The position numbers were made by a program, and so were the translations under genes. The notes beneath the pieces were generated by a model. That model had not been told where the DNA came from and ran no database searches. It saw only the letters and a program-made list of their open reading frames with translations. A stretch of 37,404 nucleotides of DNA, from positions 1 through 37,404 of the forward strand of contig CAJBVW010000061.1 in NCBI GenBank assembly GCA_903959175.1. Reading direction: 5' to 3'. Below are positions 1 through 35,588 of the stretch, piece after piece (positions within the stretch are counted from its first letter, which is position 1; every line of letters starts with the position of its first letter). Source of the DNA: an uncultured Pseudomonadota bacterium (GTDB lineage: Bacteria; Myxococcota_A; UBA796; SXON01).

Positions 1-157
1 CCCGGCGGGACTCCACCTTTAGCCCGACGATGAGCAGCCCAGGCTGATCCGTGGACGGATCGGCGAGAGGACGGCGGAGGCCGGGGCGTCAGGCTGGGGT
101 GGGGACGGTCGGGCTTGGGGGCCTACAGACGGTCATCGCGGCGAGAGCTTCGACTAC

Positions 158-10480: not shown

Positions 10481-10505
10481 GGTCACCACGTCGCCAGGAG
10501 GCCCC

Positions 10506-11771: not shown

Positions 11772-11857
11772 TCTACGCCGCCCGAGCCGTTGCGAAGGCG
11801 CACGGTGGGAACGAGGCGCTTCCACGCCGCTCCGAGCTGAGATTTTCTTATTTTATG

Positions 11858-11874
11858 CCCGGTACTTCGCCGGG
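11858..11874. terminator. Possible hairpin between convergent genes
   Basis: A 5-bp stem (CCCGG and CCGGG around a 7-base loop) lies between two convergent genes. A T-rich stretch is on its left side, so for plus-strand transcripts the T-run comes before rather than after the stem. Use as an intrinsic terminator is only weakly supported. Confidence 0.2.
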
Positions 11875-11898
11875 GAGGCCGGCAGGCGTCACGTAGCC

Positions 11899-12726: not shown

Positions 12727-12862
12727 CGGCCCCCGCGAGGGGTAGGTCTTGGCGATCTCGTAGCGCGCAGGCACGGTCCCATGTACCGCGGAACCGAGAC
12801 GGCCGCCGTGACGCGCGTGTCGAGGAGCGCCGGTGAATCGTGCCGAACCGGCCGAAGTTACG

Positions 12863-21400: not shown

Positions 21401-23586
21401 AACTTCTTCGAGGGCGCGAACATCGTCTTGTCGTGGTTGATCCAGCCGAGGATGAGCAGCACCTCGGGGTGCATGTCCCCGGCGTTCTCCTTCTTCGACA
21501 TCTTGTCGTACTGCCAGCCCTGCGGCGCGACGAGGCCGCCCTGGCGGACGAAGGTGACATCGTCGTACCCGGTGTACGTCGCGTTCACCCACTGGGCGAC
21601 GAGGTCGAGCGGGAGCCAACCCTGCCGCGCGCTGACGCCCTCGATGTCGTCGAAGATCGCGGGCTTGATCGCGTCGAGGAGTCGGCGGACCTGGGCCTTC
21701 GCCTGCGCGTCGTCGGGACGCGCCATCGCCCGGTCCATCTTCGGCCAGAGCGACCCGGACAGGTACACTTCGGCCGGGAACAGCTCGTCCCAGCCGTCGC
21801 CATCGACGCACCAGCCGCCCGCGAGCACCTTCGCGCGGATCTGGTCGGGCGTGAACGGCCCGCCGAGCCCAGCGTGGTAGTCGAGGAGCTCGCGCACCGA
21901 GAGCATCCGCGCGTGGCGGTAGAGGTGCTCGGCCTGGGCGACCACGTCGTCGGCCCGGCCGTTGAACCGCGGCTCGATGACCGGGGGCTTGTTGCGGAGC
22001 CCGGCGATCAGGTGCCCGGCGCGGTCAAACGCCGACAGGAAGCGCTCGGCGCCGGTGTTGCCGCCACGGGCGAGCTTCACCAGCTCGATTCGGCCGTGCG
22101 GGTTGCCGTTCGTGGTGATCCAGGCGGCGAGGCCCTCGTGCAGTTCGGGCCACAAGAGTGGCGGCTCCTCGGCGTTTTCGGCCGCGACCAGCGCGAGGTA
22201 CTTGTCCACGCGTAGCCCGAGCAGCACCGCGCTGGCGAGCTCGCGCGGGAGGTCTGCGACATCGGCCTCGGTGACGCGGGTGACGCCGATACGACCCCTG
22301 CCGCCAGCGGGGTCGGCGGCCTGCCGAGCCGGGAAGGCGATGACCTTGCAATCGCCGCAGATCGGGCGCTCGACGAGCGCGGGCAGACCGGTGAACTCGC
22401 CCTGCACCTGGTAGCCCCAGCGCGGCTTCGCGGTCTGGTCGTCCTCGCCGTGGTCGTCGCCGACTTCGCGGCCGAGGATGTGACGCGGGAACGCCTTGAA
22501 GTAGCCGCCGGAGACGATGGCCTCGTCGGCGCTGTCCACGGCGTCGAGCTGGCCGCCACGCGCACGGAAGAAGAGCACGTCGGTGACGAGCATCGCGCCG
22601 GGGAAGATCGCCTCGCGTCGCTTCTCGTTGATGCTCGGGAGCCGGAACGCCGCGGCGAGGTGGTGGCGCTTCAGCACCTTCTCGCGGAGGGCTACGAACT
22701 GCGCCGTCCGCGACGTGAGGAAGCCGCCGGGCACGAGGAACACGCCGAGCCCGTCGGGAGCGAGCAGGTCGAGGCCCCGACGAAGGAAGTAGTGGTACGC
22801 CATCTTCTCGCGGTAGGCCCGGTCTGGGTCCTCCGCGATCGACGCCCCGCGGATGCCGTAGGGCGGGTTCGACACGACGAGCCCAAGACGCCCCGCAGCC
22901 CCGGCGCCCTTCTCGCGCACCCAGCGCTCGAACGGGGCCAGCGTGAGGTCCACGTCGGGGCGCAGGACGTGCAGCATCCGGGCGGACAGCTCGGACCACT
23001 CGACGGCGTGCCAGGTAATGCCCGGAACGGGCTCGAACGCACGGAGAAAGCGACCGATACCCGCCGAGGGTTCCAGCGCGTGGACGGTCTCGCCATCGTG
23101 GGGAAGGCTGGGTACCAGCGGCGCGACGAGACGGGCGATCTCCTTCGCCACCTTGCTCGGGGTGTAAAATTCATGAATGAGTCCGCGCTGTTCTGGCGGA
23201 GGGAAGCCTGGCGGGAACTTGCCAGCGGCGGTCTGGATGGAGAGCCCGCCCCAGCCGGAGTACCCGGCGAGCACGGTGCGCTCGTCGGGGTTTGGGGCGC
23301 GCTTCTGGGCGTACAGGTTCGCCGCCGTCGCCATCGCGGCGATGTTCGCCGCGGTGCGCTTGCTGGCGGTCCAGAACTCAGGGATGTCCTCGACGGGGAA
23401 GGCGGCGTTGTTCGCGGCCTGCATCCGCGCGAGCACGGGACCGAGGTTCTGCTCGATGACGGCTTCGAGCGCCCAGCGGTTCCGGGCAAGGAAGTCGTCG
23501 AGATACGCGACGTCCACGCCGCTCGGCAGGCGGGTGCGGACGAGGGGGACGACGGCGTCGAGGAGCTGGGCGGCGACTGCACTCAT
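18439..23586 (-). CDS. DarB-like N6-adenine methylase / SF2 helicase with N-terminal shared tag
   Basis: This 1715-aa fusion starts with the tag RLPSGVDVAYLDDFLARN (19-36). An N6-adenine methylase follows, with motif I EPSAGIG (172-178) and motif IV NPPYG (240-244). A Snf2-like SF2 helicase then shows Walker A GVGKT (823-827), VLVPNSIVWKW, DEAQ (1004-1007), SATP near 1065, and a motif V/VI region with EGIDLQTR and LQQRNGRGVRQG. The C-terminal 400 residues hold a coiled region and a domain of unknown role. This layout matches phage P1 DarB and related methylase-helicases; P1 DarB is packaged in the virion and protects incoming DNA from type I restriction. No clear ribosome-binding site precedes the ATG. 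Packaging here is inferred. Confidence 0.9.
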   Translation of the reverse strand: MSAVAAQLLDAVVPLVRTRLPSGVDVAYLDDFLARNRWALEAVIEQNLGPVLARMQAANNAAFPVEDIPEFWTASKRTAANIAAMATAANLYAQKRAPNPDERTVLAGYSGWGGLSIQTAAGKFPPGFPPPEQRGLIHEFYTPSKVAKEIARLVAPLVPSLPHDGETVHALEPSAGIGRFLRAFEPVPGITWHAVEWSELSARMLHVLRPDVDLTLAPFERWVREKGAGAAGRLGLVVSNPPYGIRGASIAEDPDRAYREKMAYHYFLRRGLDLLAPDGLGVFLVPGGFLTSRTAQFVALREKVLKRHHLAAAFRLPSINEKRREAIFPGAMLVTDVLFFRARGGQLDAVDSADEAIVSGGYFKAFPRHILGREVGDDHGEDDQTAKPRWGYQVQGEFTGLPALVERPICGDCKVIAFPARQAADPAGGRGRIGVTRVTEADVADLPRELASAVLLGLRVDKYLALVAAENAEEPPLLWPELHEGLAAWITTNGNPHGRIELVKLARGGNTGAERFLSAFDRAGHLIAGLRNKPPVIEPRFNGRADDVVAQAEHLYRHARMLSVRELLDYHAGLGGPFTPDQIRAKVLAGGWCVDGDGWDELFPAEVYLSGSLWPKMDRAMARPDDAQAKAQVRRLLDAIKPAIFDDIEGVSARQGWLPLDLVAQWVNATYTGYDDVTFVRQGGLVAPQGWQYDKMSKKENAGDMHPEVLLILGWINHDKTMFAPSKKFDDDNEKDIDKIRMKKAAEWDASFKGWAGATPERRLAIEHAYNRQFRGYIAPTYTAEPLAIARWRKDGPRLHPHQVAGGRRILANRGGLLAFDVGVGKTYTGIAVLARARQEGWCKRPVVLVPNSIVWKWVADIQRVLPDYRIAVIGSKKKTISRGERKGLATSDTDTPQERAEKWTRFQAGEYDVVLLTYTALGRTRMNEKAVRAYADKTEAIQREVALRRRNAAKRKKLSERDEAILREGIAAWVAQQMELAEGWEYDPGIAWDDIGVDMLIVDEAQNYKNLYLPEDREGGVPRFMGNPGDGSKRAWQLDFRCAAVRKRTGGTGVVLLSATPAKNSPLEFYNLIQYVDPDAWRRMGIRDPEQFIDRYLRIEIRPVVTPSMEVEERGAVVGFQNLHELRDTILRYGEFKTAEDVGLKLPDPKVEMVEVDMDAGQDAKYDRYVREIEAALKSDDPSDKAKILGLLARMALVAIHSQLDQGYGWKNAEQVSDPSSPKFEALAERVLANRTCGHIVFVDNVAAHRWVKMVLVREGIAADRIGVLNAEVAPNAADRQRIAKEFNGDPDEGAAPKFDVVIANQIAYEGIDLQTRTCAIHHLDLPWEPATLQQRNGRGVRQGNTLSAIAIYYYFARRSQDGLRFNLIQGKRGWMTQLIKSQDRDTNNPGAQMDMGPEEILLLISRNPEQTRARLEAVRAQREAEAKKKIAAEASKLLRAINARFRNAERTKDGIEAARLRGEAEERLKHLSRVNVDAWPWAPTAVVVRERPVLVAEGGGPVYEGLRAGIPSAWNASRIDFIEFGKVTRDGQIALRSAGDATWKLAKADDGNFTSLKPENYGATFPADEEPSTIRAVTQAANDRLRYSGDWPGLGWQHAPDAWVERTWPQVADTVVGALAKVSYYNQQSQKIPVVAPSGLRVVNAGAASGTAGVDVLPPTEGGWQAFLAQASASGLKFGELAEAGRWWWGRSIPRNLLSGEADAGDDVAEGAA

Positions 23587-23623
23587 GGGGAGGCAATAGT
23601 CGCGACCGGGCGGGGAAGGCAGC

Positions 23624-23662
23624 GACTTTCACTTGCCGCGGGGCGGTTTCACTTGCCGCGGG
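23624..23662 (-). promoter_or_regulatory. Two direct copies of a TTTCACTTGCCGCGGG element upstream of the helicase gene
   Basis: Copies at 23627-23642 and 23647-23662 are exactly 20 bp apart. The first extends to GACTTTCACTTGCCGC (23624-23639), identical to 32078-32093 upstream of the other leftward operon. On the coding strand the element reads GCGGCAAGTGAAAGTC and lies 38 bases before the helicase start codon. It is probably an operator or promoter element. Confidence 0.65.
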
Positions 23663-23785
23663 CGGCAGGTAGCGGCGTGGCTCACCGTGGGCTTCTCGAT
23701 GCCGAATTAACGCCCCGCGCTCGCCAGCGCCCCGAGAGCGTTCATCGTTCCTATCGGCACTCGCCGAGTGGGCTCAAGTCCGTAG

Positions 23786-24613
23786 CTACGGGAACGCGCA
23801 CTTCCGCCACGCCAGCCGAAGCGGGTGGTCGAGCGTGTGGTCCCAGTAAGTGCCGAGGACATCGTACATGCCATGGGGGTTGGTCCTCATGAAGGACACG
23901 CGGAATTCACGCAGTACCTGCTGATAGATAGGGTCAGGCCAATACGACGTCGCGCGTGAGATTTCCCATCCGTGAAACCAGCGTCCCGGATCTGTGTTAT
24001 CAGTTGAGATCGCGCGACTCTTCATCTCAGCGGTCAGAGCGGTCATTGCTGCGGGATCAGGCGCAATTGTAGCCGCTAAGGCGAAAAATGCAGGAACCCA
24101 GGCGATCCTCCCGTAGAATGGGAAGCTAGCATGATGGTTGTCGCCCGATCCGAAACGGCCAAGCCAAAACGGCCAGCCGCGCCGGTAAATGTCATGTGCG
24201 ATACTCTGACGGGGATCGCAAATCGAACTTGCCGCAGCGACGGAAATATAATCCTCCCAAGAAGCAAATTCACGCGGCTTTATGCCGTTGTTCACGAGAA
24301 CGCCCGGGTGGTCGTCCGCGTTGTAGTAGTTCACGCGTATCTGATGGTTGAACCTATCTTCGAGGCCAGCAGGCCACTCGGCTCGCAACTTCCTCACCAT
24401 GAAGTACCAGCTCGTCCAGATGCTGCAATTGTTCGCTCCCCACCCAGCACCCTCCCTGTCCTTGATGAACCCGTACGGATCCGTGAACCTATTTGCAATT
24501 TCATCGATCCAGCTTCCTCCGGTCTCAACGGCAGACACCGGCATGGCTCGGACGCATCCCGGGCCTGTCAAAGCCAGCGCCGCGGTCCCTTTAAGGACGT
24601 GTCTTCGATTCAT
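23786..24613 (-). CDS. Tat-exported protein of unknown function, lower GC
   Basis: This 275-aa protein has a twin-arginine signal (NRRHVLKG followed by the hydrophobic TAALALTGPG). I chose the ATG at 24611-24613 because GAGGT lies seven bases before it. The mature part is rich in Trp, Tyr and Phe (GWGANNCSIWTSWYFM, FGSGDNHHASFPFYG, YWDHTLDHP) and looks like a folded periplasmic or secreted domain, possibly alpha/alpha-barrel-like. I do not recognise the family. Its base composition is clearly lower in GC than its neighbours, suggesting separate acquisition. It sits between the two leftward operons and may be cargo. Confidence 0.75.
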   Translation of the reverse strand: MNRRHVLKGTAALALTGPGCVRAMPVSAVETGGSWIDEIANRFTDPYGFIKDREGAGWGANNCSIWTSWYFMVRKLRAEWPAGLEDRFNHQIRVNYYNADDHPGVLVNNGIKPREFASWEDYISVAAASSICDPRQSIAHDIYRRGWPFWLGRFGSGDNHHASFPFYGRIAWVPAFFALAATIAPDPAAMTALTAEMKSRAISTDNTDPGRWFHGWEISRATSYWPDPIYQQVLREFRVSFMRTNPHGMYDVLGTYWDHTLDHPLRLAWRKCAFP

Positions 24614-24769
24614 TAAGCTACCTCGGCCTGGCAAGATACCATAGACGTAGGCGTCCCGGTGAGCCCCCCAGACCCCTTTGCCGAGCGGGCCCGCGCGTCG
24701 GCGCAGGCGCGCTGATCCGCCAGCCGCGGCGGTCCGCCCAGCGGCGAGGGAGCAGGTCTCAGTACTCGG

Positions 24770-25085
24770 AGGGGCGAGCCGGCGTGGTGGGCGTCGACCC
24801 AGCGGACGAAGTCGGCGGCGACGGGCGCGGACTTCTTCTTTCGGAGCGCGAGACGGCCGGCCGCGTCGAGGTTCTTGGCGCGCTGCTCGACCGCGTAGAG
24901 CCCCGACCCGAGGGCGTGTTGTCGTCGCTCCGATCCCGCCCGTTCCCTGCGACGCGGGCCCCGACTGCTTCGGCCTCCTTCAACATGCGTCGGACGCGGG
25001 AGTTGCAGCCGCACTCGACGACGCACCCGCCCGGCGGGCCGGCGACCTGGTAGCCGGCGAAGGGCGGGGCTTCGCTGGCGGGTGC
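24770..25085 (-). pseudogene. Remnant of an IS66-family transposase
   Basis: Two minus-strand frames together resemble the C-terminal half of an IS66 transposase. One frame carries VVECGCNSRVRRMLKEAEA (about 25030-24970), like the family's GCxAHxRRxFxEA motif. Another carries LYAVEQRAKNLDAAGRLALR (about 24913-24850), like the LYAIEREAK...RLALR motif, followed by a short FVRWVD helix. The frame changes between the two, and the rest of the transposase is missing. No terminal inverted repeats were found. Limits are approximate. Confidence 0.5.
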
Positions 25086-25173
25086 CCCGCGGCCCTCCAA
25101 CCCGGGGAAAAGGTGCTAATGGACGCCGTGGTTCGTCGTCGTGAACTCGTAGATGGCCGCGGACCGATTTGAG

Positions 25174-25468
25174 CTACTTCCACAAGGCGTTGCGGGACGC
25201 GGACCACTGCGATCCCCCCCAGTGGGGGTACTCGCTCCCCTCCAGTAGCCTCTGAGTGATTCGAAACGTGCCGTTGGCGCTCTCCGGGTGCGCATCTGAC
25301 GACACCGAGCTCCGGGCGACGTTCGCTTGATCCGTGATACAAGCAGCTTGCGGGCGTGGATTCGAAGCACCCGCCCGCAGTCGCGGCGGTCGACATAACC
25401 TGCGTGAAGACCATCGAGTCATCTGAGCGGAGGTAGTCAACAGTCGTGACGGGAGGATTGGCACTCAC
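25174..25468 (-). pseudogene. Small gene, probably frameshifted
   Basis: A GTG at 25466-25468 overlaps the stop of the 133-aa membrane gene upstream (GTGA), the pattern used throughout this operon. The first about 50 codons (VSANPPVTTVDYLRSDD and on) are in that frame. From roughly 25330 the protein-like text moves to another frame (SSDAHPESANGTFRITQRL ... EYPHWGGSQWSASRNALWK, stop at 25174). A single frameshift would give a protein of about 95-100 aa. Function unknown. The neighbouring IS66 remnant suggests decay at this operon end. Confidence 0.4.
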
Positions 25469-25866
25469 GGCCCTGCCCCGCTAGCCGCCTCAACCGGCAG
25501 GCTCGGCACCAACACCTTCACCGCCTCCGCCGCCCGGGTCGGATCGACCCCGCGCTCCAGCGCGAGGATGCCGATCACGAACATGTTGAGCAGCCAGAGC
25601 AGTAGCATCGACCAGGGCACCCAGCGGAACGGCGGGTTCGTCCGGACCTCGCGGATCTCGGTCTTGAGCTCGCCGAGCGCGGACACGACGGCCGCGCCGT
25701 TGCCGCGGATCTCGGCCACGAGCGCCGCTTCGAGCGGCGTGAGGAAGCCCTCGGCGAGCTGCGGGTCGGGGACCAGGCGCGGGCCGACGGCGGGGGCCGG
25801 GGCGGGCGGGATCTGTCCCGCGGGCGTGACCGTTTCGACGGCGGCCAGGGCAGCGGCATCGCTCAC
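25465..25866 (-). CDS. Single-pass membrane protein of the small-protein operon
   Basis: This 133-aa protein has an Ala/Pro-rich N-terminus, a short amphipathic segment (residues 42-75) and one strong membrane segment (WVPWSMLLLWLLNMFVIGILAL, about 82-103), then a short C-terminal tail. The GTG start overlaps the preceding stop. No enzyme motif is present. It could be a virion-membrane or holin-like protein, but this is inferred only from size and setting. Confidence 0.72.
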   Translation of the reverse strand: MSDAAALAAVETVTPAGQIPPAPAPAVGPRLVPDPQLAEGFLTPLEAALVAEIRGNGAAVVSALGELKTEIREVRTNPPFRWVPWSMLLLWLLNMFVIGILALERGVDPTRAAEAVKVLVPSLPVEAASGAGP

Positions 25867-27341
25867 GACGCACCCCCCATCTGGGCCGCAGCCTGCTTGA
25901 TCGCATCCGAGAACGCCGCGACGAGCGCCGCATCCTTCGCCGGATCAACCTCCGGACTCTTCGCCTTCCGCGTGCGCTTCGGCTTCTCGGTCGTCGGGAC
26001 CGACATCGGCGGCGCGGAGGGCGGCCACACGGGCTGCATCGATACCACGGGCGCGGGCGTCTCCCGCGACTCGATCCGCTTCACCACGTCGTCGGAGCTC
26101 CGCACCGGCGCAGTGAGCTTCTGCTGACCGGCGGCGCAGGACTTCGCGGCACGCGCGGCGGCGAGCGACACGCGCTCGGAGATCCGGCGCAGCGTGGTGA
26201 CGATGTCGGGGCTCTCGCCGCGACCGATCGCGTCCCACGCCTGCTGGTAGGCCCCGGCGGCGCGGCGCACATCCTCCAGCGCCGCCTTCTGCTCCTTGCC
26301 CGAACACAACGGGGACGCGACGAGCGACTGCGCGTGCCGGATGAGCTTCCCGGCGCGCGTGAGCAGGTCGGGGGCCTCGGTGGAGCCCCAGAGCGACCCG
26401 GCCAGCTCCTCCAACGCCTGGGACTCCTTCTCGGTGGCCGACGCGATGCGCGCGACCGAGATCGGGCACGAGGGCGGCTCGGGCGCCGGGATCGAATCCA
26501 GCGAGGGCACGAGCACCCCCGCCGTCCGCGGCGGGGCATCGGCGACGGGCACCGTCCCGCGCGTGAGCGCGCTGGCGTGCTTCGCGGCCTTGCCCTTCTC
26601 GCGCTTGCCGAACATGGCCACGACCGAGCCCACGTCGTTGACGACGACCCAGCCGTCGTCCCGCTCCACGGCGCGGAAGCTGGACTTGCCCTTGTACCGC
26701 TCGGTGGGGTCGCGCCGCTCGGGGATCGGGCGCGGCGGGTACTGGGCGGCGAAGGCGAGATCGACGGTGTTCCGGCGGTGCGTGTCGCGGAAGCTGCACG
26801 CCTCGGACACGAGCCCGACGACAAGCCCCATCCCGGCCGTGATCGCCTCGGCGAGGCCGGAGCGCTCGATGCTCTCCTGCTTCGCCTTGCTGAACCACTT
26901 CTCGGCGCGCTCGAAGGTGGCGAGCCAGCGCCCGTCTGCCTTCGACGTGAGCTTCAGCGACCCGTACGACGCGACGCGGCGTTCGAGCACGATGCTCGGG
27001 GTGCCGTCCGTGCAGAGCAGAAGCCCCGCCCACTTCCCCTTCAGGGTGGCAGGCCCGGCGGGCGGAGGACCGGACTTCAGCTTCCGCAGCTCGGCGACGG
27101 CCGAGGTGGGATCGGCGTCGAACTCGGGCGCGTGCGACGGCGCGAGCCCGAGGTCGGTACGCCACACCTTCGCGGGCTGCCGCTTCACCTGGTGGACGAG
27201 CAGCGCCGTGTTGTCGCGCGGGCGCATCACGAACGCGACCTCGCCGCCGCAGCCACGCCCGTAGGCGAGCAGCACGCGCGGGACGTCCTCGTCGGCACCG
27301 ACGATGTTGAAGCGGAACTTCTCGGGGTTGGTCGTGGTCAT
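25863..27341 (-). CDS. Unrecognised 492-aa protein of the small-protein operon
   Basis: This 492-aa protein has a compact N-terminal domain (residues 1-260, mixed alpha/beta with RVLLAYGRGCGGEVAFVM near 22-39) and a helical C-terminal part. It ends in a Lys/Arg-rich stretch (KPKRTRKAKS) and a short helix. No nucleotide-binding or catalytic motif is seen. The ATG start lies three bases after the upstream stop, and the stop overlaps the following GTG. It is the largest protein of the operon and a candidate structural or scaffold protein. Function is not assigned. Confidence 0.75.
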   Translation of the reverse strand: MTTTNPEKFRFNIVGADEDVPRVLLAYGRGCGGEVAFVMRPRDNTALLVHQVKRQPAKVWRTDLGLAPSHAPEFDADPTSAVAELRKLKSGPPPAGPATLKGKWAGLLLCTDGTPSIVLERRVASYGSLKLTSKADGRWLATFERAEKWFSKAKQESIERSGLAEAITAGMGLVVGLVSEACSFRDTHRRNTVDLAFAAQYPPRPIPERRDPTERYKGKSSFRAVERDDGWVVVNDVGSVVAMFGKREKGKAAKHASALTRGTVPVADAPPRTAGVLVPSLDSIPAPEPPSCPISVARIASATEKESQALEELAGSLWGSTEAPDLLTRAGKLIRHAQSLVASPLCSGKEQKAALEDVRRAAGAYQQAWDAIGRGESPDIVTTLRRISERVSLAAARAAKSCAAGQQKLTAPVRSSDDVVKRIESRETPAPVVSMQPVWPPSAPPMSVPTTEKPKRTRKAKSPEVDPAKDAALVAAFSDAIKQAAAQMGGAS

Positions 27342-27344
27342 GGT

Positions 27345-28001
27345 TCAGCCCTTCCCCAGCTTGGGGACGATGAAGATGGCGGCCCCGGCGAGGCCGAGCG
27401 CGGCGAGGAGCCAGCCCCAGCCGCTACCGCCCGCCTTCGCGAGGTCCTCGGTGGGGGAGGAGGACGGAGCGGAGTGGTTGATCTTGGCGATGGCGTCGGC
27501 GAGTGCCGGATCGCGCTCGATGATCGCGATCTCGTCGGAGAGCACCTGCGCCTCCTTGTAGTGGACGACGGCCCACGCGAGGCCGGTCATCGAGACGGCG
27601 ATCACCGCGCCGGCCGCGGCGATGGCGATGATCACGACGGGCGCGACGCCAACCTCAATGGCCCCGCCACGCTCGGACGCGGTCGCGGGGCGCTCGTAGG
27701 CGCCGTACCCCTTGGCGTGGGCGCTCCACGAGGTGAGCAGCGCGATGGTGCGCCGGAGCAGCGCCGTGAGCGCCGGATCGCCGGGCTTCGCGGCGAGCGC
27801 CTGGATGACGGTCACCTGAGCGCGGATCAGCCGCGACCCGCTGTCCGCGACGATCGCGCGGTAGCCCGCCACGACCTTCGCGAGCGCCTGCGCGTTCTCA
27901 GCGGCGTAGCTCTGCACCCGCGCGAGCGACTGCTCGGCGGTGATCCGCATCGCCTGGATGCGCTCCGAGACGGCCTCGGTGCTGACCGGGAGGGTGGCCA
28001 T
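27345..28001 (-). CDS. Two-segment membrane protein
   Basis: This 218-aa protein has a long N-terminal helical region (1-100), a membrane segment (about 117-146, VAPVVIIAIAAAGAVIAVSMTGLAWAV) and a second hydrophobic segment near the C-terminus (GWLLAALGLAGAAIFIVPKL). I chose the ATG at 27999-28001, which has GGAG seven bases upstream; a GTG four codons earlier is possible. The layout would suit a membrane-embedded virion or lysis protein, but no family is recognised. Confidence 0.75.
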   Translation of the reverse strand: MATLPVSTEAVSERIQAMRITAEQSLARVQSYAAENAQALAKVVAGYRAIVADSGSRLIRAQVTVIQALAAKPGDPALTALLRRTIALLTSWSAHAKGYGAYERPATASERGGAIEVGVAPVVIIAIAAAGAVIAVSMTGLAWAVVHYKEAQVLSDEIAIIERDPALADAIAKINHSAPSSSPTEDLAKAGGSGWGWLLAALGLAGAAIFIVPKLGKG

Positions 28002-28002
28002 T

Positions 28003-28842
28003 TCAGCTCCCACACCGGCGGCCGTCGTCGCATCCGAGGTAGCCGGCCACCGGCGCGGGAGCGGCCGGGGCAGCGGGCGCCGGTGCGGGCGCCGGGTGAG
28101 CGGCGGGTGCGGGCTTCGGCGCGAGCGCCTTCTGGATCTTGTCCTTCACCAGCGGGTAGAGCAACAGCGGCAGGATGCCGACGTTGTCCCCCGCGATCCG
28201 CTTTGCCGCCTTGTCCGACACGATCTGCACGATGAACAGGCCGGGGCTCACGGTCGCGACCATCGCGTTCTGCCCCGCCTTCGCCTGGATGCGCGCGGCG
28301 TCGCCGAGCGGCTTGTGGGGGCCCCACTTCGCCGCGAACAGCTTGCCCGCTTCCTCCAGGAAGTTCCGCTTCGGCTTCTTGGGCTTGGCCGCAGGCTCCA
28401 CGCCGACGTAGCCGTCGAGCCAGTTGCCTTCCGTCTCGTCCTCGGCAGGTTCGGGCGCGTCCTCGATGCCCTCGTCAGGCTCCTCGGTCTCGCCGGGCTC
28501 GGCCTCGGGGATGTCGTCGAGCGCCGCGTCCATGTCGTCCTCGCCGGGCTTCCGGGCCCGACTCGGCTTCTTGGGCTTCCACCCGAGAGCGCGCAGATCG
28601 ACCATGACGACGGCGAGCCGACGCTTGGCCTGGCGCAGCGCGGCCTTCCAACCCAGCGGGTGCCCTGCGGACAGCTTGGCGATGCGGCGCTTGAGCGCAC
28701 GGGCGCGTCGGAGCTTCGCCCGGATCTGGCGGTCCTTCGCCGTGAGCTTGCGCTTCGGGCCGGAAACGATGGCGCGGCGGGACTCCCCGGCGAACTCTAC
28801 GGGACCGACGACGCGGGCGCGGATGAAGCGAGAATTGGACAT
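28003..28842 (-). CDS. Basic N-terminus, acidic middle, membrane-like C-terminus protein
   Basis: This 279-aa protein starts at the ATG at 28840-28842, which shares one base with the stop of the gene before it (TGATG). The first 105 residues are highly basic (KRKLTAKDRQIRAKLRRARA, QAKRRL), followed by a Glu/Asp-rich linker (about 107-150). A KPKKPKRN segment leads to a helix-rich end with a hydrophobic stretch (NVGILPLLLYPLVKDKI) and an Ala/Pro tail. The charge pattern suggests nucleic-acid or capsid-interior contact. No known family is recognised. Longer upstream starts give Pro/Arg-rich, probably untranslated text. Confidence 0.72.
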   Translation of the reverse strand: MSNSRFIRARVVGPVEFAGESRRAIVSGPKRKLTAKDRQIRAKLRRARALKRRIAKLSAGHPLGWKAALRQAKRRLAVVMVDLRALGWKPKKPSRARKPGEDDMDAALDDIPEAEPGETEEPDEGIEDAPEPAEDETEGNWLDGYVGVEPAAKPKKPKRNFLEEAGKLFAAKWGPHKPLGDAARIQAKAGQNAMVATVSPGLFIVQIVSDKAAKRIAGDNVGILPLLLYPLVKDKIQKALAPKPAPAAHPAPAPAPAAPAAPAPVAGYLGCDDGRRCGS

Positions 28843-29423
28843 CAGGACTCCCGGCGCCGAGAACGGCGCGATTGGGTGGAACGGTGGGAGCGGCGGCGCC
28901 CCTGGTCGGGGTCGCGACGGAGCCCGGCGAGGCGGACGCGGGTGACGATGCGCTCGTGGCACTGCCGCCCGTCGAGGCGCTCCTCGAGCATCCCGAGGCG
29001 GGCGGAGGGGTCGTCGAACCAGGCGGTCCCGTTGACGACGTAGCGGACGACGCAGTGGTAGAGCCCGTGCTCGCCCTTCTTGATCGACGTGGTGAGCGCC
29101 ACCTCGCTGGGGATCGACTCAAGGCGCGCGGCCCTCGCCGCGGCGTATCCGGGGTCGTTTGGCGCGAGCGCCTTCCACCCGCGGGCGATGAGCTCACCGG
29201 CCCGAGCGGCGGCGAGCGCGTCGCAATCCTCCCAGCCCTGCGCGAGCAGCTGGATGTAGTCGGACCAGGTCTCCTCCTCCTCGCGTCCGTACCGAACGCT
29301 CGTCGCGTAGAGCAACGGCAGCGTCGGCCGCTCGCGGAGCAGGCGCGCGTTGCAGCGGGCCAGCCAGTTGAGCAGGCTGACCGCGTCGCGTTCGTTGAAA
29401 GTGAGGGCAACCGTGATGTTCAC
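28842..29423 (-). CDS. Transglutaminase-like cysteine protease-type protein
   Basis: This 193-aa protein shows the Cys-His-Asp order of transglutaminase-like cysteine proteinases. GWEDCDALAAARAGELIARG places C67 next to D68 at the start of a helix. GLYHCVVRYVVNGTAWFDDPSARLGM gives H123 on a strand and D137 or D138. The spacing and the 'DC(D)xLA...G' and 'H-V-x-V...W-x-DP' patterns fit the family, although the usual GDC is EDC here. The C-terminus is an Arg/Ser-rich tail. The GTG start has only a weak ribosome-binding site. It may process virion proteins, cross-link them or act on peptidoglycan; activity is inferred. Confidence 0.68.
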   Translation of the reverse strand: MNITVALTFNERDAVSLLNWLARCNARLLRERPTLPLLYATSVRYGREEEETWSDYIQLLAQGWEDCDALAAARAGELIARGWKALAPNDPGYAAARAARLESIPSEVALTTSIKKGEHGLYHCVVRYVVNGTAWFDDPSARLGMLEERLDGRQCHERIVTRVRLAGLRRDPDQGRRRSHRSTQSRRSRRRES

Positions 29424-29438
29424 GAGGATGTCCGCGGG

Positions 29439-29855
29439 TCAGGAGGAGGAGAGTTGGAAGCCGCCGGTCGACACGATGTCAACCGACGCGACGACGCCAG
29501 GCGCGGTGCCACCGGCGAGGACGAGGCGGGCGCGAACCCACGGGAGAAGCCCGACGTTCGCGCTGTCGAGCGCCTCGGCGTAGGTGCCGGGGTCCGTGCG
29601 GACGGTGCCGAGCACGAGGTCCACCCAGGCGAACCCGTCCACAGACCCCTGGATGAGGAGCTGCGCCGTCGGCGAGTTCGCGCCCCCGGAGAAGGTCAGC
29701 AGCGTGATGAACTTGAACTCCTGCACGGAGTCGTTCAGCCGATCGCTCTGGTCGGGCAGGATTCGCACCCCCGGGCCGTTCTGGGTGACCGTGACCGGCG
29801 TCTGCGGCGGGGTGTTCATCAGGCGGGTCGTGACCCGATTTGCGTAGCACTTCAT
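29439..29855 (-). CDS. Beta-rich small protein, candidate structural component
   Basis: This 138-aa protein is dominated by predicted beta strands (FKFITLLTFSG, AQLLIQGSVDGFAWVDLVLG, WVRARLVLAGG, VVASVDIVSTGG). The pattern 'xxLLIQGSxDGxxWVDL ... PWVRARL' is typical of small beta-sandwich proteins in phage structural modules. The ATG is preceded by GAGGG. No signal peptide or enzyme motif is seen. A capsid, spike or decoration role is a working idea only. Confidence 0.7.
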   Translation of the reverse strand: MKCYANRVTTRLMNTPPQTPVTVTQNGPGVRILPDQSDRLNDSVQEFKFITLLTFSGGANSPTAQLLIQGSVDGFAWVDLVLGTVRTDPGTYAEALDSANVGLLPWVRARLVLAGGTAPGVVASVDIVSTGGFQLSSS

Positions 29856-29874
29856 GGCGGTGGCCCTCGGAGAG

Positions 29875-30513
29875 TCAAAGGTGGAGGAGGAAGACGACGC
29901 GGTAGGCGTAGGTGCCGGCGGGGAGCACGCACCGGATGGTCGCGGCGTCCCCGATGGGAGCGCCCGGAGCGGGCTGCTTGTCGGCCGCGTACCGGCCGCG
30001 GGCGGTGGCGTTCACGTCGAGGAGCTCGACGAACGCCGTGGAAAGGAGGGTGCTGTCCGAGAGTTCAAGGCGGACGAACTTGGCCCACGGGGGCGGGATC
30101 ACATCGACACTTCCGCCGCCGCCCCCGACGATCTGGGCGCTCGATCCCCGCACCGTCCACTGGTTCTCGGTGTCACATTGGCCGTTGGCAATCGCCGCAC
30201 GCGCCTGGATGTTGGCCGAAGTAGACAGGTTGGAGCCGAACACCTGCACGGTCGTGGCGTGGACGCAGATGCGCGTACACTTCGGGACGTCGAAGAGGGC
30301 CGTGCGCTGGGCACCGCCGCCGCCGGACCAGACGAGCCGGGCCTCCCAGGGGGAGCCTTCGTCCGACCAGAGGTCGATGATGCGCCAGTCGCCGTCACCC
30401 ACGCCGACGGATTGCGCCGTGAGCACCTCGCCCTCTGCCCCCGCCGAGCCGGCCACCGTCGAAGCGGAGAGCTTCGCGGTACCGGAACGGCGGGAGAGCT
30501 TGCATACGCCCAC
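29875..30513 (-). CDS. Beta-rich protein, candidate structural component
   Basis: This 212-aa protein is Gly/Ala/Val-rich with many short strands (EARLVWSGGGGAQRTALFDV, TRICVHATTVQVFGS, WAKFVRLELSDS, TYAYRVVFLLHL) and scattered cysteines. It contains no recognisable enzyme motif, signal peptide or membrane helix. The start is a GTG with GGTGAG nearby. Its neighbours are the 138-aa and 242-aa beta-rich proteins. Together they could be jelly-roll-type virion proteins, but nothing in the sequence proves it. Confidence 0.7.
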   Translation of the reverse strand: MGVCKLSRRSGTAKLSASTVAGSAGAEGEVLTAQSVGVGDGDWRIIDLWSDEGSPWEARLVWSGGGGAQRTALFDVPKCTRICVHATTVQVFGSNLSTSANIQARAAIANGQCDTENQWTVRGSSAQIVGGGGGSVDVIPPPWAKFVRLELSDSTLLSTAFVELLDVNATARGRYAADKQPAPGAPIGDAATIRCVLPAGTYAYRVVFLLHL

Positions 30514-30530
30514 GGCTCACCCCCGCCCGA

Positions 30531-31259
30531 TCAGCAGCGCGGCGTCTTGACCCGCGCCTTGCCGTAGAAGCTGAGCTTCAGGGCGGCGGTGGTCGAGCCA
30601 GCCGTGTAGTTGATGGTGACCGGGACACCGGCGCGCAGGATGCGTCCGCCGAAGGAAGGCCCGTGGTACGCCGTGGGCGAGATCAGCGCCGCGTCGAGGT
30701 TGTCGAGCACCACCGGGTCGTCGCCCGAGATGATGGTGTTGATCGTCGCAGCGGTGTCGCCGGTCGCGAAGATCTTGGAAAGATGCAGGCTGGTACGCGG
30801 CGTGAGGGTCACGCTCATCGACTGCCCGACGGCGGTGGCGACGATGCCGCTCACGGTGACGTTGCGCTCCACGATCTTCCCCTTCCGCGACTTGCGGATC
30901 TTGCGGTTGACGGCCCGGTTCTTCTGCGTGAGCTTCTTCTCGCGGGCCGCGAGGCGCTTCTGGCGGCGGTGGATGCTGCGGAGCTTCCGCTGCTTGGGCG
31001 TGAGGCCGATCTCGTCGCCGAAGTCGTCGCCGAGGTCGTCGCCGAGGTCGTCGCCGAAGTCGTCCCCGAGGTCGTCGCCGAGGTCGTCGCCGAAGTCGTC
31101 GTCGTCGTCGTCGTCATCGTCGTCGTCGTCGTCACCGTCGAGGTCCGCCCCGAAGGAGGGGTCGAGGCCGTGGAGCGAGGCGCGCAGGGAGGTGCGATCG
31201 ACGAGGCAATGCCCGTCGGCGGTGAAGGTCACGAGGGCCCAGATGGGTGCGGTGGTCAT
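30531..31259 (-). CDS. Asp-repeat protein with basic segment and beta-rich C-terminus
   Basis: This 242-aa protein has four parts. A short N-terminal domain (1-40) precedes a poly-Asp run and GDDL/GDDF tetrapeptide repeats (about 42-83). A strongly basic coiled segment (88-128, with RRQKRLAAREKKLTQKNR) comes next. A beta-rich C-terminal domain (130-242) contains VTLTPRTSLHLSKIF and a hydrophobic YHGPSFGGRILRAGVPVTI stretch. The last part would suit a jelly-roll coat domain, with the charged arms facing nucleic acid or other subunits. The Asp repeat is encoded by a 12-base DNA repeat and may vary in length. No family is recognised. Confidence 0.72.
   Translation of the reverse strand: MTTAPIWALVTFTADGHCLVDRTSLRASLHGLDPSFGADLDGDDDDDDDDDDDDDFGDDLGDDLGDDFGDDLGDDLGDDFGDEIGLTPKQRKLRSIHRRQKRLAAREKKLTQKNRAVNRKIRKSRKGKIVERNVTVSGIVATAVGQSMSVTLTPRTSLHLSKIFATGDTAATINTIISGDDPVVLDNLDAALISPTAYHGPSFGGRILRAGVPVTINYTAGSTTAALKLSFYGKARVKTPRC
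31018..31138. repeat. In-frame 12-base and GTC repeats encoding Asp-rich tract
   Basis: The plus strand shows about six 12-base units of the type GTCGTCGCCGAG or GTCGTCGCCGAA, then a run of GTC triplets with one ATC and one ACC. On the minus strand these encode GDDL/GDDF repeats followed by poly-Asp. Such repeats expand and contract by slippage without changing frame. Confidence 0.85.
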
Positions 31260-31325
31260 TGGAGTCGTCCTTGGTGGAAAGCGGTCAGTGAGAGGTGGTG
31301 AGGGTGGAAGGGTGGAAGCGGAGAA

Positions 31326-31970
31326 TCAGCGGCGCTCGCGGATGAAGCGACTCCGCCCGGACACGTCCTCGTCCTCGTCGCGGTTGCGACGCTGGACCCG
31401 GGCCCGGCGGCGTCCGGCGACGTCTTCGCCCTCGGTGCCGGGCACCATGCGGACCATCCGGGCGATCTCGCCGATGTCGTCGCCCTTGATCTGGGCAGGA
31501 GGGGCCGCCGCGGGGGCCGGAGCCGCAGCCGGAACCTGGGCGGGCGGCGTCGCGGAGCCGTTCTTCTTCTCGGCGAGCGCGCGGCCCGCGTGGCGACCGA
31601 TGCGTCCGATACCGGCGGCCATGAGGCCGTTGCCGAGGGCCAGCGCGTGGCTGCCACCCTTGCCCGACATCGTCTTGTAGAGGCCGTACCCACCGAGCAG
31701 GAGGCCACCGCCAAGGCGGAGGTCCACCGGGCCGATATCCATCTTCTCCTCGCCCAGGTAGCCCTCGGCAAAGGTGGCCGCGAACACGGTGCCCTGGGTC
31801 TCGGCCGTCGCGATGACCGCGTCGGCGAGCTCCTCGGACATCTCGCGCGCCTTGTTGAAGCGGCCGGTCAGGTTCTTGGCCTTGGCGATGGCCTCGGAAA
31901 AGACACCCTTCATCTTGCTGTCGGGTACCTTTCCGCCGGTCATGGCCGTCTTGAGGGGGCTGGTCGTCAT
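31326..31970 (-). CDS. Gly-rich small protein, first gene of the leftward operon
   Basis: This 214-aa protein starts at the ATG at 31968-31970, which has GAGGA upstream. The first 60 residues are helical (KMKGVFSEAIAKAKNLTGRF). The centre is a Gly-rich amphipathic or membrane-active region (LRLGGGLLLGGYGLYKTM and HALALGNGLMAAGIGRIG, about 84-125). The C-terminus is Ala/Pro-rich and then Arg/Asp-rich (RRRARVQRRNRDEDEDVSGR). It is read from the shared 16-bp element about 108 bases upstream. It may be a membrane-associated structural protein. Unrecognised family. Confidence 0.72.
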   Translation of the reverse strand: MTTSPLKTAMTGGKVPDSKMKGVFSEAIAKAKNLTGRFNKAREMSEELADAVIATAETQGTVFAATFAEGYLGEEKMDIGPVDLRLGGGLLLGGYGLYKTMSGKGGSHALALGNGLMAAGIGRIGRHAGRALAEKKNGSATPPAQVPAAAPAPAAAPPAQIKGDDIGEIARMVRMVPGTEGEDVAGRRRARVQRRNRDEDEDVSGRSRFIRERR

Positions 31971-32077
31971 CGTGGGGTCCTCGGGGGTGGAGTGACCGGC
32001 GGGCCGGTCGGGAGTCGGGGGCCGGATGAGCCCGGCTGACGCAGACCACATTGCTCGCCGAAGTCGAGGATGGAAGG

Positions 32078-32093
32078 GACTTTCACTTGCCGC
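32078..32093 (-). promoter_or_regulatory. 16-bp element shared with the helicase operon
   Basis: GACTTTCACTTGCCGC here is identical to 23624-23639. On the minus strand it reads GCGGCAAGTGAAAGTC and lies about 108 bases upstream of the 214-aa gene. CCTTCC follows the element in both places (directly here, after GCTG in the other). It is likely an operator or a promoter part. Confidence 0.6.
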
Positions 32094-32335
32094 CGCTTGC
32101 CGCTTTTCCGGCCTTCGCAGCGCAGCAAGTGCGGGGCCAATTGCGGCAACCTCGGGGGCGACCGCGGCAACTGAAGCCGCGGTCCGCAGCAAGGGCAGCA
32201 ACCGATCCGGGCTCGGCGCAGCAAGGGCGGAAAGGGCCCGCAGCAAGCCAGGATCGCCCGGCAGCAACCGCAGCAAGGCCCGGCGGAAAGGGCGGCAACC
32301 ACCCGGGCAGCAAGTGCAGCAAGCGGCGGCAAGTG
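32084..32335. repeat. Iteron-like array of GC(A/G)GCAA units
   Basis: About 17 short units with consensus GC(A/G)GCAA(G/C) fill the intergenic region. On the plus strand, units start near 32122, 32143, 32164, 32186, 32195, 32218, 32240, 32261, 32270, 32292, 32307, 32316 and 32326. GCGGAAAG variants are at 32227 and 32283, and two inverted copies lie at 32084 and 32095. Many spacings are 21-22 or 9-10 bases, that is, close to whole helical turns. The longest unit GC(A/G)GCAAGTG recurs at 32122, 32307 and 32326 and, inverted, at 32084. The array may be an operator cluster, a replication origin or a partition site. Confidence 0.75.
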
Positions 32336-32418
32336 GTTTTTCAGGGTCAAGACATAGTCTCGAAGCTACATCATATGTGCAGCATCAACCACCTACTATC
32401 ACATAGGAACACCCCACG
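32336..32418 (+). promoter_or_regulatory. AT-richer stretch, likely promoter for the rightward operon
   Basis: After the GC-rich array the sequence becomes notably AT-rich (ACATAGTCTC, CATCATATGTGC, CTACTATCACATAGG) up to the ATG at 32419, with AGGAAC as a weak ribosome-binding site. It probably holds the promoter of the rightward operon. I cannot fix -35 and -10 boxes with confidence. Confidence 0.35.
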
Positions 32419-33561
32419 ATGACCACCTACATCTTCCACGACCTCGACCCCATCCAGAAGCGCCTCGTCCAGCTCGCCGACGACCTCGGCTACGTCGTCC
32501 TCGCCGAGGTGACGGGCCGCAGCCAGACCGACAAGCTGGCGCGCGTCAACCTGAACGAGACCGATCTCGCACCCTTCCTCGCGGCCCGCACGGGTGAGGA
32601 CGCCGAGGACGAGGACGACGAGCGCGACGACGACGGCGACGGGGATGCCGATCGCGACGAGGACGACGACGTGCAGGACCACTTCGACGGCCCGATCCGT
32701 GACGCCACCCCCGCCGACATCGCCCGCGCGGCCGTGCGCTGGGTGCAGGAGACGGCTGGGGCGCAGATGAACTCGACGCGCCGTCGGAAGTTCAAGCTCT
32801 CGGCGTGGAGCCCCAAGGGCGACCGCCTCATCTACAGCGCCCGCTTCTCGTGCGAGAACCCGGACTGGGACACCGCCGAGGAAGACGACGACCTCGAGGA
32901 GCGGCGTCGGCCGCCCGTGCTGGTGCCCGGTTCGGGGGGGCTCACCGTCCTGCGGAACCCCGCGAACCCCGCCGCGGCGGCCACCCCGCCGGCCGGCGAC
33001 AAGCCCAGCTCGGCGATGGTCATGCTCGAAGCCATCCCCGAGGGCCGCGTGTGGAAGGCGCTCGGCGGCGGGTACGAGCACCTGCTCACCCTGTACGAAC
33101 GCGGCTTCGGCGGCCTGTCCGAGCTCCAAAACGACGCCCTCTCCATGATGGGCGGCCAGAACCGGCGCAACCAGGTGATCATCGAGAGTCTCGCCGACCG
33201 GCTGATCACGCTGCGGGTCGGGACCGAGTTCGCGGAGAACGAGGGTCGCCAGGAGGCGGCCGGCTCACGCATGGGTCAGGAGCTGGGCAAGCAGTTCATC
33301 TCCGAGCTGGGCGGCCTCGGCCGCGTGCTCGCCACGGCGAAGTTCGGCATGGCGCCCGAGATGGTCGAGCTCGCCGACATCGTGACCGCGTCGCCCGAGC
33401 TGATGGAGGCGATGCGTCGTCCCGAGGTCCTCAAGATGCTGCGCGACGAGAAGACGCGGAAGGAACTGGCGAGTCTCCTCGTCGCCGCGTCGGCCGTGCC
33501 GGATTCCCCGGAACCCCCTCCCACCCCCAACCCGCCGACGGACCTGCCGAAGGCGGCCTGA
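32419..33561 (+). CDS. Unrecognised 380-aa protein, first gene of the rightward operon
   Basis: The 380-aa protein has an N-terminal domain (1-60) followed by a long acidic run (about 60-90, EDAEDEDDERDDD). A second folded part reads RRRKFKLSAWSPKGDRLIYSARF (about 117-139). A Pro/Ala linker and a helical C-terminal region (about 190-360, with SELQNDALSMMGGQNRRNQV) complete it. No catalytic motif is visible. It is expressed from the iteron region and shares the acidic-run style of the 200-aa and 242-aa proteins. It may be a virion, scaffold or replication-associated protein. Function unassigned. Confidence 0.78.
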   Translation: MTTYIFHDLDPIQKRLVQLADDLGYVVLAEVTGRSQTDKLARVNLNETDLAPFLAARTGEDAEDEDDERDDDGDGDADRDEDDDVQDHFDGPIRDATPADIARAAVRWVQETAGAQMNSTRRRKFKLSAWSPKGDRLIYSARFSCENPDWDTAEEDDDLEERRRPPVLVPGSGGLTVLRNPANPAAAATPPAGDKPSSAMVMLEAIPEGRVWKALGGGYEHLLTLYERGFGGLSELQNDALSMMGGQNRRNQVIIESLADRLITLRVGTEFAENEGRQEAAGSRMGQELGKQFISELGGLGRVLATAKFGMAPEMVELADIVTASPELMEAMRRPEVLKMLRDEKTRKELASLLVAASAVPDSPEPPPTPNPPTDLPKAA

Positions 33562-33610
33562 TCCCCCGTTTCGATCCCACCCACCCTCACGATCCCCCTT
33601 GGAGTCCCCC

Positions 33611-34213
33611 GTGTCCGAAACCGCATCCCGCCTTCCCCGCCGCACCGACAAGAAGCCCGAGTGGGCCGACGTCATCGGCCGCTTCTACGCCAACAGCTTC
33701 GACGCCCCCACCCGCGCCGCGCTCCTCGACTCCGCCGAGGCGTGGGCCTCGATGGACCCCGACGAGCAGTCGTTCCACGCCGCGCACCTCGCCTTCCGTC
33801 AGGTCCAGGCGCTCGGCGACATCCACGACACGCTGAAGGGCATCGAGCGCGGCCTCGCCACCCTCGACCCGAAGGCGCTCGCGGCGCTGAAGCACCTTCC
33901 GGGCGTGAAGCGCGCGCTGGTAGTGATCGCGCGCGGCCAGCAGGAGATGCTGGAGGTCCTCGAAGCCAACGGCTCCCCCGGCGGCGCCTCTGGTGAGGAT
34001 GACGACGACGGTGACAACGACGACGCGGACGACGACGACGCCGACGGTGAGGACAGCGATGGCGACGACGACGACGACAGCGAGCTCGCCGACGCCGTCG
34101 ATGCCGACGAGATCGAAGAAGAGGACCACGGCAACGGCGATGCCCCGATCGTGCCCGAGGTCATCCCCGCTGGTGCGCGGCGCCCCGTGCCGACCGAAGG
34201 GGGTGCGTCGTGA
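33611..34213 (+). CDS. Helical protein with long acidic tail
   Basis: The 200-aa protein starts at a GTG with GGAG seven bases upstream (33601-33604); an in-frame TTG at 33599 is less likely. Residues about 18-122 are helical (WADVIGRFYANSFDAPTRAA, HAAHLAFRQVQALGDI, GVKRALVVIARGQQEMLEVLE). An approximately 45-residue Asp/Glu run (about 128-175) and a Pro-rich end follow. The gene overlaps the next one by GTGA. It may bind a basic partner or mimic DNA through the acidic tail. No family is recognised. Confidence 0.75.
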   Translation: MSETASRLPRRTDKKPEWADVIGRFYANSFDAPTRAALLDSAEAWASMDPDEQSFHAAHLAFRQVQALGDIHDTLKGIERGLATLDPKALAALKHLPGVKRALVVIARGQQEMLEVLEANGSPGGASGEDDDDGDNDDADDDDADGEDSDGDDDDDSELADAVDADEIEEEDHGNGDAPIVPEVIPAGARRPVPTEGGAS

Positions 34214-34698
34214 ACCCGGCGCTCGCCCAGGACCCGCGCGCGCTGCGGGTCAACCTGACCGCGCCCACCACCGCGATCCGCATCGGGCCGTTCTCGTTCG
34301 ACGGGCTCAAGGCGCTGCTCGGCTTCGAGCTCGCCGAACTGCTCGGCCCGATGATGGTCGGGCCGAAGTTCCAGCGCCCGATCCTCGGCGGCGTCATCGA
34401 CGTGTACCCGCTCGCCATCCCCAACGGCGAGGGACTCACGATCCCGGTGAAGCTGGTTGGGGGCGTCGGCTTCCGCAACCTGCACGGAGCCCTCGTGCTT
34501 CAGGTCCCCCCTGCGATGGTGGACCTGGTGCGCGCGCAGCTCGCCACCGAGCTGGCGAACGGTGAGGCCCTCGGCCCCGCCAACAACGACAACGGTGCCG
34601 GCGGCACCGTGACCGAGTTCGCGCTGCGGCTCCGGCCCGGGATGCGGAAGGCGATCCCGCTCGGCACCTGGGGCGAGCTGGGCCTGGAGGCCGCGTGA
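34210..34698 (+). CDS. Small unrecognised protein of the rightward operon
   Basis: This 162-aa protein has a mixed alpha/beta look (TTAIRIGPFSFDGLKALLGF, GGVIDVYPLAIPNGEGLTI, FRNLHGALVLQVP) and a Gly/Asn-rich loop before the C-terminal strand region. The hydrophobic stretches are too short for clear membrane helices. The GTG start overlaps the previous stop, and the stop overlaps the regulator's start (TGATG). A structural role is possible; nothing specific can be seen. Confidence 0.72.
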   Translation: MNPALAQDPRALRVNLTAPTTAIRIGPFSFDGLKALLGFELAELLGPMMVGPKFQRPILGGVIDVYPLAIPNGEGLTIPVKLVGGVGFRNLHGALVLQVPPAMVDLVRAQLATELANGEALGPANNDNGAGGTVTEFALRLRPGMRKAIPLGTWGELGLEAA

Positions 34699-35189
34699 TG
34701 GAAACCATCCTGTTCCGCGAGCACAAGGCCAGCTTCGGGGCCTACCTTCGCGCCCTCCGCGTCGGCCGGGGCCTCTCCCTGCGCGACGCCGCCACCAAGC
34801 TGGATGTCACGTTCGCCAAGCTCCAGAAGATGGAGACGGGCGGGCGGTTCCGCATCGAGTCGCCTGCCATCTTCGACGCGATGGCCGCGCTGTTCGAGCG
34901 GCCCGTCGCCGAGGTGCTCGCGGCGGCTGGGGTGCGATTCGATTTGCCTGCGCTCACGACGCCGGGGACCGGCCGCGAAATCTGGCTCTACCGGCGCAGC
35001 GGCGGCTGGTCACGCATCGCGGACTTCACCTGGAAGGAGGACGCGACGAGCCACGACCTCGACGACGAGATGGCCGCCGCCGGCTACGACCCCTGCACGC
35101 TCACCTACGGGCGCGAGTACGGGCTGATGGTCGAGGTACATCGCGGGAGACACGGCACGACCCGGCCCCCGTACGACTACTTCGTGTAG
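34698..35189 (+). CDS. XRE-type helix-turn-helix regulator
   Basis: This 163-aa protein has an N-terminal HTH of the XRE/Cro type. FGAYLRALRVGRGLSLRDAATKL (about residues 12-34) is followed by KLQKMETGGRFRI and a further helix ending in FERPVAEVLAAAG. The C-terminal 90 residues are of unknown role (REIWLYRRSGGWSRIADFTW). It is the only DNA-binding regulator I recognise in the element. Its likely targets are the GC(A/G)GCAA units and the 16-bp element upstream of both leftward operons, but that pairing is inferred. A GTG one codon earlier (34695) is an alternative start. Confidence 0.82.
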   Translation: METILFREHKASFGAYLRALRVGRGLSLRDAATKLDVTFAKLQKMETGGRFRIESPAIFDAMAALFERPVAEVLAAAGVRFDLPALTTPGTGREIWLYRRSGGWSRIADFTWKEDATSHDLDDEMAAAGYDPCTLTYGREYGLMVEVHRGRHGTTRPPYDYFV

Positions 35190-35444
35190 GTGAACGTCGG
35201 CGGCACCTGCGAGCCAGTCGCCGTACCCACGCTCCCCGACCTGATCGCACTCCTCGGCGAGCTGAAGCCGCTCGCGGACCCGCAGTACATCGGGATCGCC
35301 CCGGCGACCGGCTGGACGGCAGGGGGGAAGGCGGTGGGGGCGTTCGTACTCAGCCCCGACGGCGGCGTCACGCCGATGGTCGCCGCGTCGAGGACGGAGG
35401 ACTCGGGGTTGGTCGAGGAGTTTGGGGGGTTGAGGGGGCCGTAG
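35190..35444 (+). CDS. Small unknown protein at the operon end
   Basis: This 84-aa reading begins at a GTG directly after the regulator's stop. The text LPDLIALLGELKPLADPQYI and TGWTAGGKAVGAFVLSPDG has normal protein character with a helix and a beta hairpin. It could be a coupled small gene or fortuitous; the immediate coupling favours a real gene. No function is visible. Confidence 0.5.
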   Translation: MNVGGTCEPVAVPTLPDLIALLGELKPLADPQYIGIAPATGWTAGGKAVGAFVLSPDGGVTPMVAASRTEDSGLVEEFGGLRGP

Positions 35445-35588
35445 TTTGCACCGGCGCGCGTTGCTGTCGAGCCGTCCACGCGCGGTCCCCTTCGTGGATG
35501 GAGTTCGAACTATCTGCTTGAGGCCGAGCGCGGAAACTCGCGTTCAGATGCAGGTTCTTGAGGGCGGGGTGTAGCGCGTGGCGAACCG

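Follow-up and report, generated by a model that had tools for sequence, protein, structure and literature searches.

Two leftward operons of this locus are preceded by the same 16-bp sequence, which raises the question of whether one regulator reads both copies and which protein that might be. In the window, that is, the whole stretch of 37,404 nucleotides that we analysed, GACTTTCACTTGCCGC occurred exactly at 23624–23639 and at 32078–32093, as a sequence-only reading had reported. The doubling of the helicase copy after 20 bp, described in the same reading, was found at 23644–23659, with 3 mismatches and an identical 13-base core. Within the 7.2-Mb genome, this core, GCGGCAAGTGAAA, was present three times, each time at one of these three positions. 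On the coding strand, GCGGCAAGTGAAAGTC was followed by CCTTCC without a gap at the small-protein operon and after 4 bases at the helicase gene, confirming the claimed distance of a few bases. The core reads GCGGCAAG on the leftward coding strand, and the plus-strand unit GCRGMAA at 32122–32332 is the same unit in the opposite orientation, so that the core is indeed the inverse of what had been called an iteron unit. The leftward side carries the following features.

18439–23586, minus strand: g3, a DarB-like methylase/SNF2 helicase of 1715 aa (Pfam and PHROGs)
23594–23599, minus strand: −10-like hexamer CTATTG of the helicase promoter, 40 nt after the box start, with the ATG 7 nt further on
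23624–23639, minus strand: proximal box of the helicase promoter (GCGGCAAGTGAAAGTC on the coding strand), exact 16-mer
23644–23659, minus strand: second box of the helicase promoter, 20 bp further upstream, a copy of the core
25465–31970, minus strand: leftward small-protein operon g5–g13, with conserved synteny
30531–31259, minus strand: g12, with a jelly-roll-like C-domain, within the small-protein operon
32048–32053, minus strand: −10-like hexamer CAATGT of the small-protein-operon promoter, 40 nt after the box start
32072–32077, minus strand: CCTTCC at the −35 position of this promoter, kept in several dialects and outside the shared box
32078–32093, minus strand: proximal box of this promoter, exact 16-mer
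32096–32103, minus strand: distal unit GCGGCAAG of this promoter, 10 bp upstream (unit search)

Across the window, minus-strand unit pairs (9–11 or 19–22 bp apart) were found only upstream of the helicase gene and the small-protein operon, and plus-strand pairs only in the array that precedes the rightward operon, as listed below.

32122–32332, plus strand: array of 15 repeat units GCRGMAA with spacings of 9, 10, 13, and 21–22 bp in a single orientation
32316–32335, plus strand: r1-proximal unit pair (GCAGCAAGCG GCGGCAAGTG), the mirror image of the leftward box pair
32367–32372, plus strand: −10-like hexamer TACATC of the rightward promoter
32419–33561, plus strand: r1, the proposed dialect-specific regulator (homologs, structure model, and dialect tracking)
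33599–34213, plus strand: r2, an acidic protein of the rightward operon
34210–34698, plus strand: r3, a conserved protein of the rightward operon
34695–35189, plus strand: r4, an XRE-type HTH protein present in some elements only (Pfam HTH_31)

The repeat might be due to chance, or to simple spread by slippage or gene conversion, with no reader at all. In this GC-rich window a repeated 16-mer is no rarity: we counted 45, about 20 of them outside the low-complexity acidic-repeat DNA, and Markov-1 simulations gave a mean of 3. An exact repeated 16-mer is by itself unremarkable here. Since it is not significant alone, the case for the boxes rests on their position, on the array between divergent operons, and on comparison with relatives. 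Structured RNA was ruled out as an explanation, as Rfam gave no match at 23000–35500.

Approximately 35 related elements were compared. Of 58 related genomes, 27 had matches to r1, in many cases several each, and about 25 of the 40 loci retrieved had the common order of helicase gene and small-protein operon (leftward) followed by r1, r2, and r3 (rightward). A search of 377 genomes of the phylum found the r3 family in 26, every one of which belongs to the same class as the window. The relatives sit in Myxococcota-type MAGs labelled mostly Myxococcota, Deltaproteobacteria, or proteobacterium; a few labels (e.g. Klebsiella) are probably wrong. A copy in another genus was 94–98% identical across nearly the whole window, indicating, as judged from this identity, a recent transfer. 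One copy lies on a 207-kb contig that is probably chromosomal, and two r3 copies ~9.6 kb apart on a single contig (L147, G047:C376:90000-105294) suggest tandem elements.

In nearly every element the divergent intergenic region carried phased repeats, and the repeat differed between elements. The spacings clustered at 9–10, 12–13, 21–22, and 31–33 bp, with a period of ~10.5–10.75 bp (R 0.68, 157 spacings). The forms observed were GCGGCAAG, GCGGTAAG/GCGGTAGG, GCTGTAGG, GCGGGAGA, GCGGGGAG, GCGGTTNG, GCGGTCAG, and GCGGCTGG, which share the frame GCGG-NNN-GYG, a 10-base box to which the two leftward promoters add RAA. NNN was CAA, TAA/TAG, GAG, GGA, TTC, TCA, or others, depending on the element, and we refer to these variants as dialects.

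Within one element, NNN agreed between the box of the leftward operon (in the opposite orientation) and the array, and the helicase box agreed as well in elements that have one. With dialect labels assigned by hand, the leftward box and the rightward-side array had the same dialect in the 21 elements with a readable leftward box. None of 20,000 permutations reached the observed agreement, either for all 21 elements or for 9 single-dialect representatives; the sequences are not independent, because the dialects run parallel to the r1 lineages. At a distance of 8.5 kb, the helicase box was recognisable in 8 of 18 elements, where it matched the element's own dialect, and was missing in the other 10. 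The helicase protein is ~88% identical across dialects, yet its boxes follow the dialect of their own element. Thus, unlinked boxes keep their dialect and the permutations exclude chance, which, with the recurrence of a fixed promoter geometry in divergent elements (see below), makes a repeat without a reader hardly credible.

Several dialects occurred in one genome, for example CAA, TAR, TGTAG, and TTC in G002. Because different dialects coexist in this way, a host regulator was rejected, and the reader is taken to be a product of the element itself. That the boxes share one such reader is well supported and, on these comparisons, very probable; each element probably makes its own regulator reading its own private code. 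We also considered an incompatibility-like avoidance of equal dialects within one genome. This idea was dropped, as the deficit within the family was not significant (2 observed vs 4.8 expected, p 0.10) and all genomes together gave 8 observed vs 5.0 expected.

All three promoter types shared one layout, in which a −10-like hexamer starts ~40 bases past the box, measured from the proximal unit (leftward CATAGT, rightward TACNTT, helicase CTATTG). With five TTC-dialect elements and near-duplicates set aside, the best −10-like hexamer lay at an offset of 37–42 in 12/18 leftward, 11/19 rightward, and 6/7 helicase promoters, compared with 2.4, 2.7, and 1.0 in shuffles. Six distant elements retrieved later had the hexamer at 39–41 in four cases. 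TTC-dialect elements had it at 50 on both the leftward and the rightward side, farther by one helical turn, and rightward promoters of the GAG and GGA dialects had no clear −10-like hexamer at 40. CCTTCC occupies the −35 position in leftward promoters only; as it is conserved in just some of the dialects, it is not part of the shared box. At the helicase gene, the −10-like hexamer ends only 7 nt before the ATG (23584–23599), so the mRNA may be leaderless.

This geometry bears on how the boxes might act. They could be operators of an immunity- or autorepressor-like repressor that silences all three promoters until induction. The boxes do adjoin promoters at a fixed distance, such regulation is common in phages and plasmids, and silencing would be expected of the copy on the 207-kb, probably chromosomal contig. 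However, the proximal box sits beyond the −35 position on the upstream side, so that the core promoter stays uncovered. The region also yielded no consensus sigma-70 promoter, which speaks for a requirement for an activator. The site stands at a fixed distance next to −35, with −10 conserved and −35 not, the layout of a class II-like activator promoter. We consider silencing by a repressor unlikely, and activation the more likely mode of action.

The sequence-only reading had proposed that a single regulator may control both leftward operons and the rightward operon. It had staked this on conservation in relatives, and the motif search across homologous loci found conservation; repeat sites stand in three promoter regions of the element, and their shared dialect and shared geometry support the proposal. 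As to the regulator, the r1 N-domain followed dialect best of the conserved genes: its nearest neighbour had the same dialect in 27/27 cases (AUC 0.995), so that the operator consensus covaries with this candidate among relatives, as it does in phage immunity repressor/operator systems. The leftward genes, which recombine freely across dialects, matched in 5/17 (g11), 7/16 (g12), and 13/19 (g13, the gene nearest the box) cases. Mantel correlations between dialect and protein distance were saturated and gave no information. Part of the r1-N tracking could come from physical linkage, as no other coding sequence on that side lies closer to the array.

Another protein of the rightward operon (r2, r3, or r4) might read the code instead, with r1 only travelling along. 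Dialect was tracked in 24/25 cases by r3 and in 7/8 by r2, and r4 is a clear HTH protein. Nevertheless, r4 is absent from most elements, with unrelated genes or none in its place, and was rejected as the reader for this reason. Recombinants split r1-C, r2, or r3 from the dialect (r2 and r3 in L025 and L027), but never r1-N. A reader among r2–r4 thus appears distinctly improbable, whereas r1 is likely to be the reader, to judge from this tracking.

The model of the 380-aa r1 consists of an alpha/beta N-domain (1–150), a coiled coil of ~100 residues (~207–309), and a helical C-domain. The best match in the fold search, to RbcS-like CcmM domains (Z 8.2), is near the level of chance arrangements, and the list contained no known DNA-binding family. 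Residues 8, 29, 128, and 131 separate the dialects best, with lineage and dialect confounded.

The array itself could point elsewhere: it may be mainly a replication origin (iterons) or partition site, with the promoter boxes as secondary autoregulation sites of an initiator or centromere-binding protein. Its 15 direct repeats, spaced 9–22 bp at helical phase (period ~10.5–10.75 bp) with phasing at 21–22 bp, all in one orientation and adjoining a conserved gene, have the form of an iteron origin, and omega/parS sites are known to play a comparable dual role (PMC9499535). On the other side, neither an initiator nor a ParB domain can be recognised in r1, and Pfam, PHROGs, and PDB gave no relative of the Rep-initiator kind, the fold search yielding RbcS-like domains only; no ParA-type ATPase family was matched among the core element proteins scanned; and replication alone does not account for the helicase site. 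We regard an origin or partition site as the main function as rather unlikely, though less so than a repressor.

Our preferred reading, to which we assign a probability of about 0.6, takes the two 16-bp sequences as copies of an operator box specific to the element, with r1 as the best candidate reader and predicted class II-like activator. Read in this way, r1 is probably a dialect-specific regulator. A protein of the element, most plausibly r1, would read the box, its N-terminal domain contacting the DNA and its coiled coil pairing the subunits. Bound beside a poor or missing −35, r1 would activate the structural operon and the helicase/antirestriction gene in a class II-like manner. The array of ~15 sites before its own gene would give autoregulation, and might also serve iteron-like replication or copy control.

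Membership of the element in a known phage family was rejected, since r3 and g12 had no matches in the phage records searched and the helicase, r1, g11, and r3 had none in viral_contigs. The only relatives in the virus and phage collections searched were distant DarB-like relatives of the helicase, and the literature searched held no description of this element. For the beta-sandwich C-domain of g12, the best structural match was a jelly-roll protein, the capsid protein of Sulfolobus polyhedral virus 1 (Z 8.0, rmsd 3.3, 111 residues); PRD1 P3 scored Z 6.5. As this modelled match to a jelly-roll-like structural protein is suggestive only, the virus-like nature of the element is something we infer. 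A long acidic D-rich repeat precedes this domain in g12, and the protein is 71–99% identical in nearly all relatives. Another protein of the small operon, g9 (28842–29423), resembles by eye a transglutaminase-like cysteine peptidase (C, H, D motif); Pfam gave only a sub-threshold match to an unrelated scaffold domain. A domain of ~35 residues (R.P.GV...D.F..RN) is common to the HATPase-type g1 (C-terminus, 12863–12962), the cytosine methylase g2 (C-terminus, ~15762–15867), and the helicase g3 (N-terminus, ~23475–23532), and is possibly a docking or packaging tag. The region adjoining the element (1–12900) holds type I restriction-modification genes and a DUF3732/Rad50-hook-like protein.

More tentatively, r1 may found a new family of DNA-binding regulators, in which an alpha/beta domain without a recognised DNA-binding fold reads GCGG-NNN-G. 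Divergence of its NNN specificity would have produced some ten distinct natural codes, spread over related elements that often share a genome and belong to an undescribed virus-like family whose structural protein is jelly-roll-like. Such regulator/operator pairs, a series supplied by nature in which the readable code varies, would make the evolution of DNA-binding specificity directly testable, and likewise how related mobile elements coexist within a cell. The analysis also defines a control region for an undescribed family of virus-like elements in Myxococcota.

Among known systems, lambda CII and PhoB-type activators recognise paired direct repeats, spaced by one helical turn and located on or close to the −35 in promoters where this hexamer is poor. 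The paired direct repeats described here are likewise one helical turn apart near a poor −35, whereas the boxes lie just upstream of the −35 position; the likeness is one of layout, with no sequence relation claimed, and activation is predicted. The omega (ParB)/parS system of plasmid pSM19035 combines contiguous 7-bp heptads with a small RHH protein and a ParA partner (PMC9499535). Both systems have short non-palindromic direct repeats at three promoters and one element-encoded reader (here proposed), but the present units are phased at ~10/21 bp, r1 is larger with another predicted fold, and no ParA was found among the core proteins scanned. The stoperators of cluster A mycobacteriophages are dispersed through the genome and stop elongation (PMC6550527). 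With their repressor they resemble the present boxes in having many sites per genome, mostly in one orientation, and a consensus that differs between phages along with the repressor; our sites, unlike stoperators, are confined to three promoter regions (PMC6550527). Finally, in begomovirus Rep an N-terminal iteron-related domain covaries with the iteron core, and recombination swaps both as a module (PMC2974675). The virus is unrelated, and Rep is a replication initiator, whereas replication is only a possible role of the present array; the shared feature is covariation of the repeat core with the N-terminal part of a protein that the element itself encodes.
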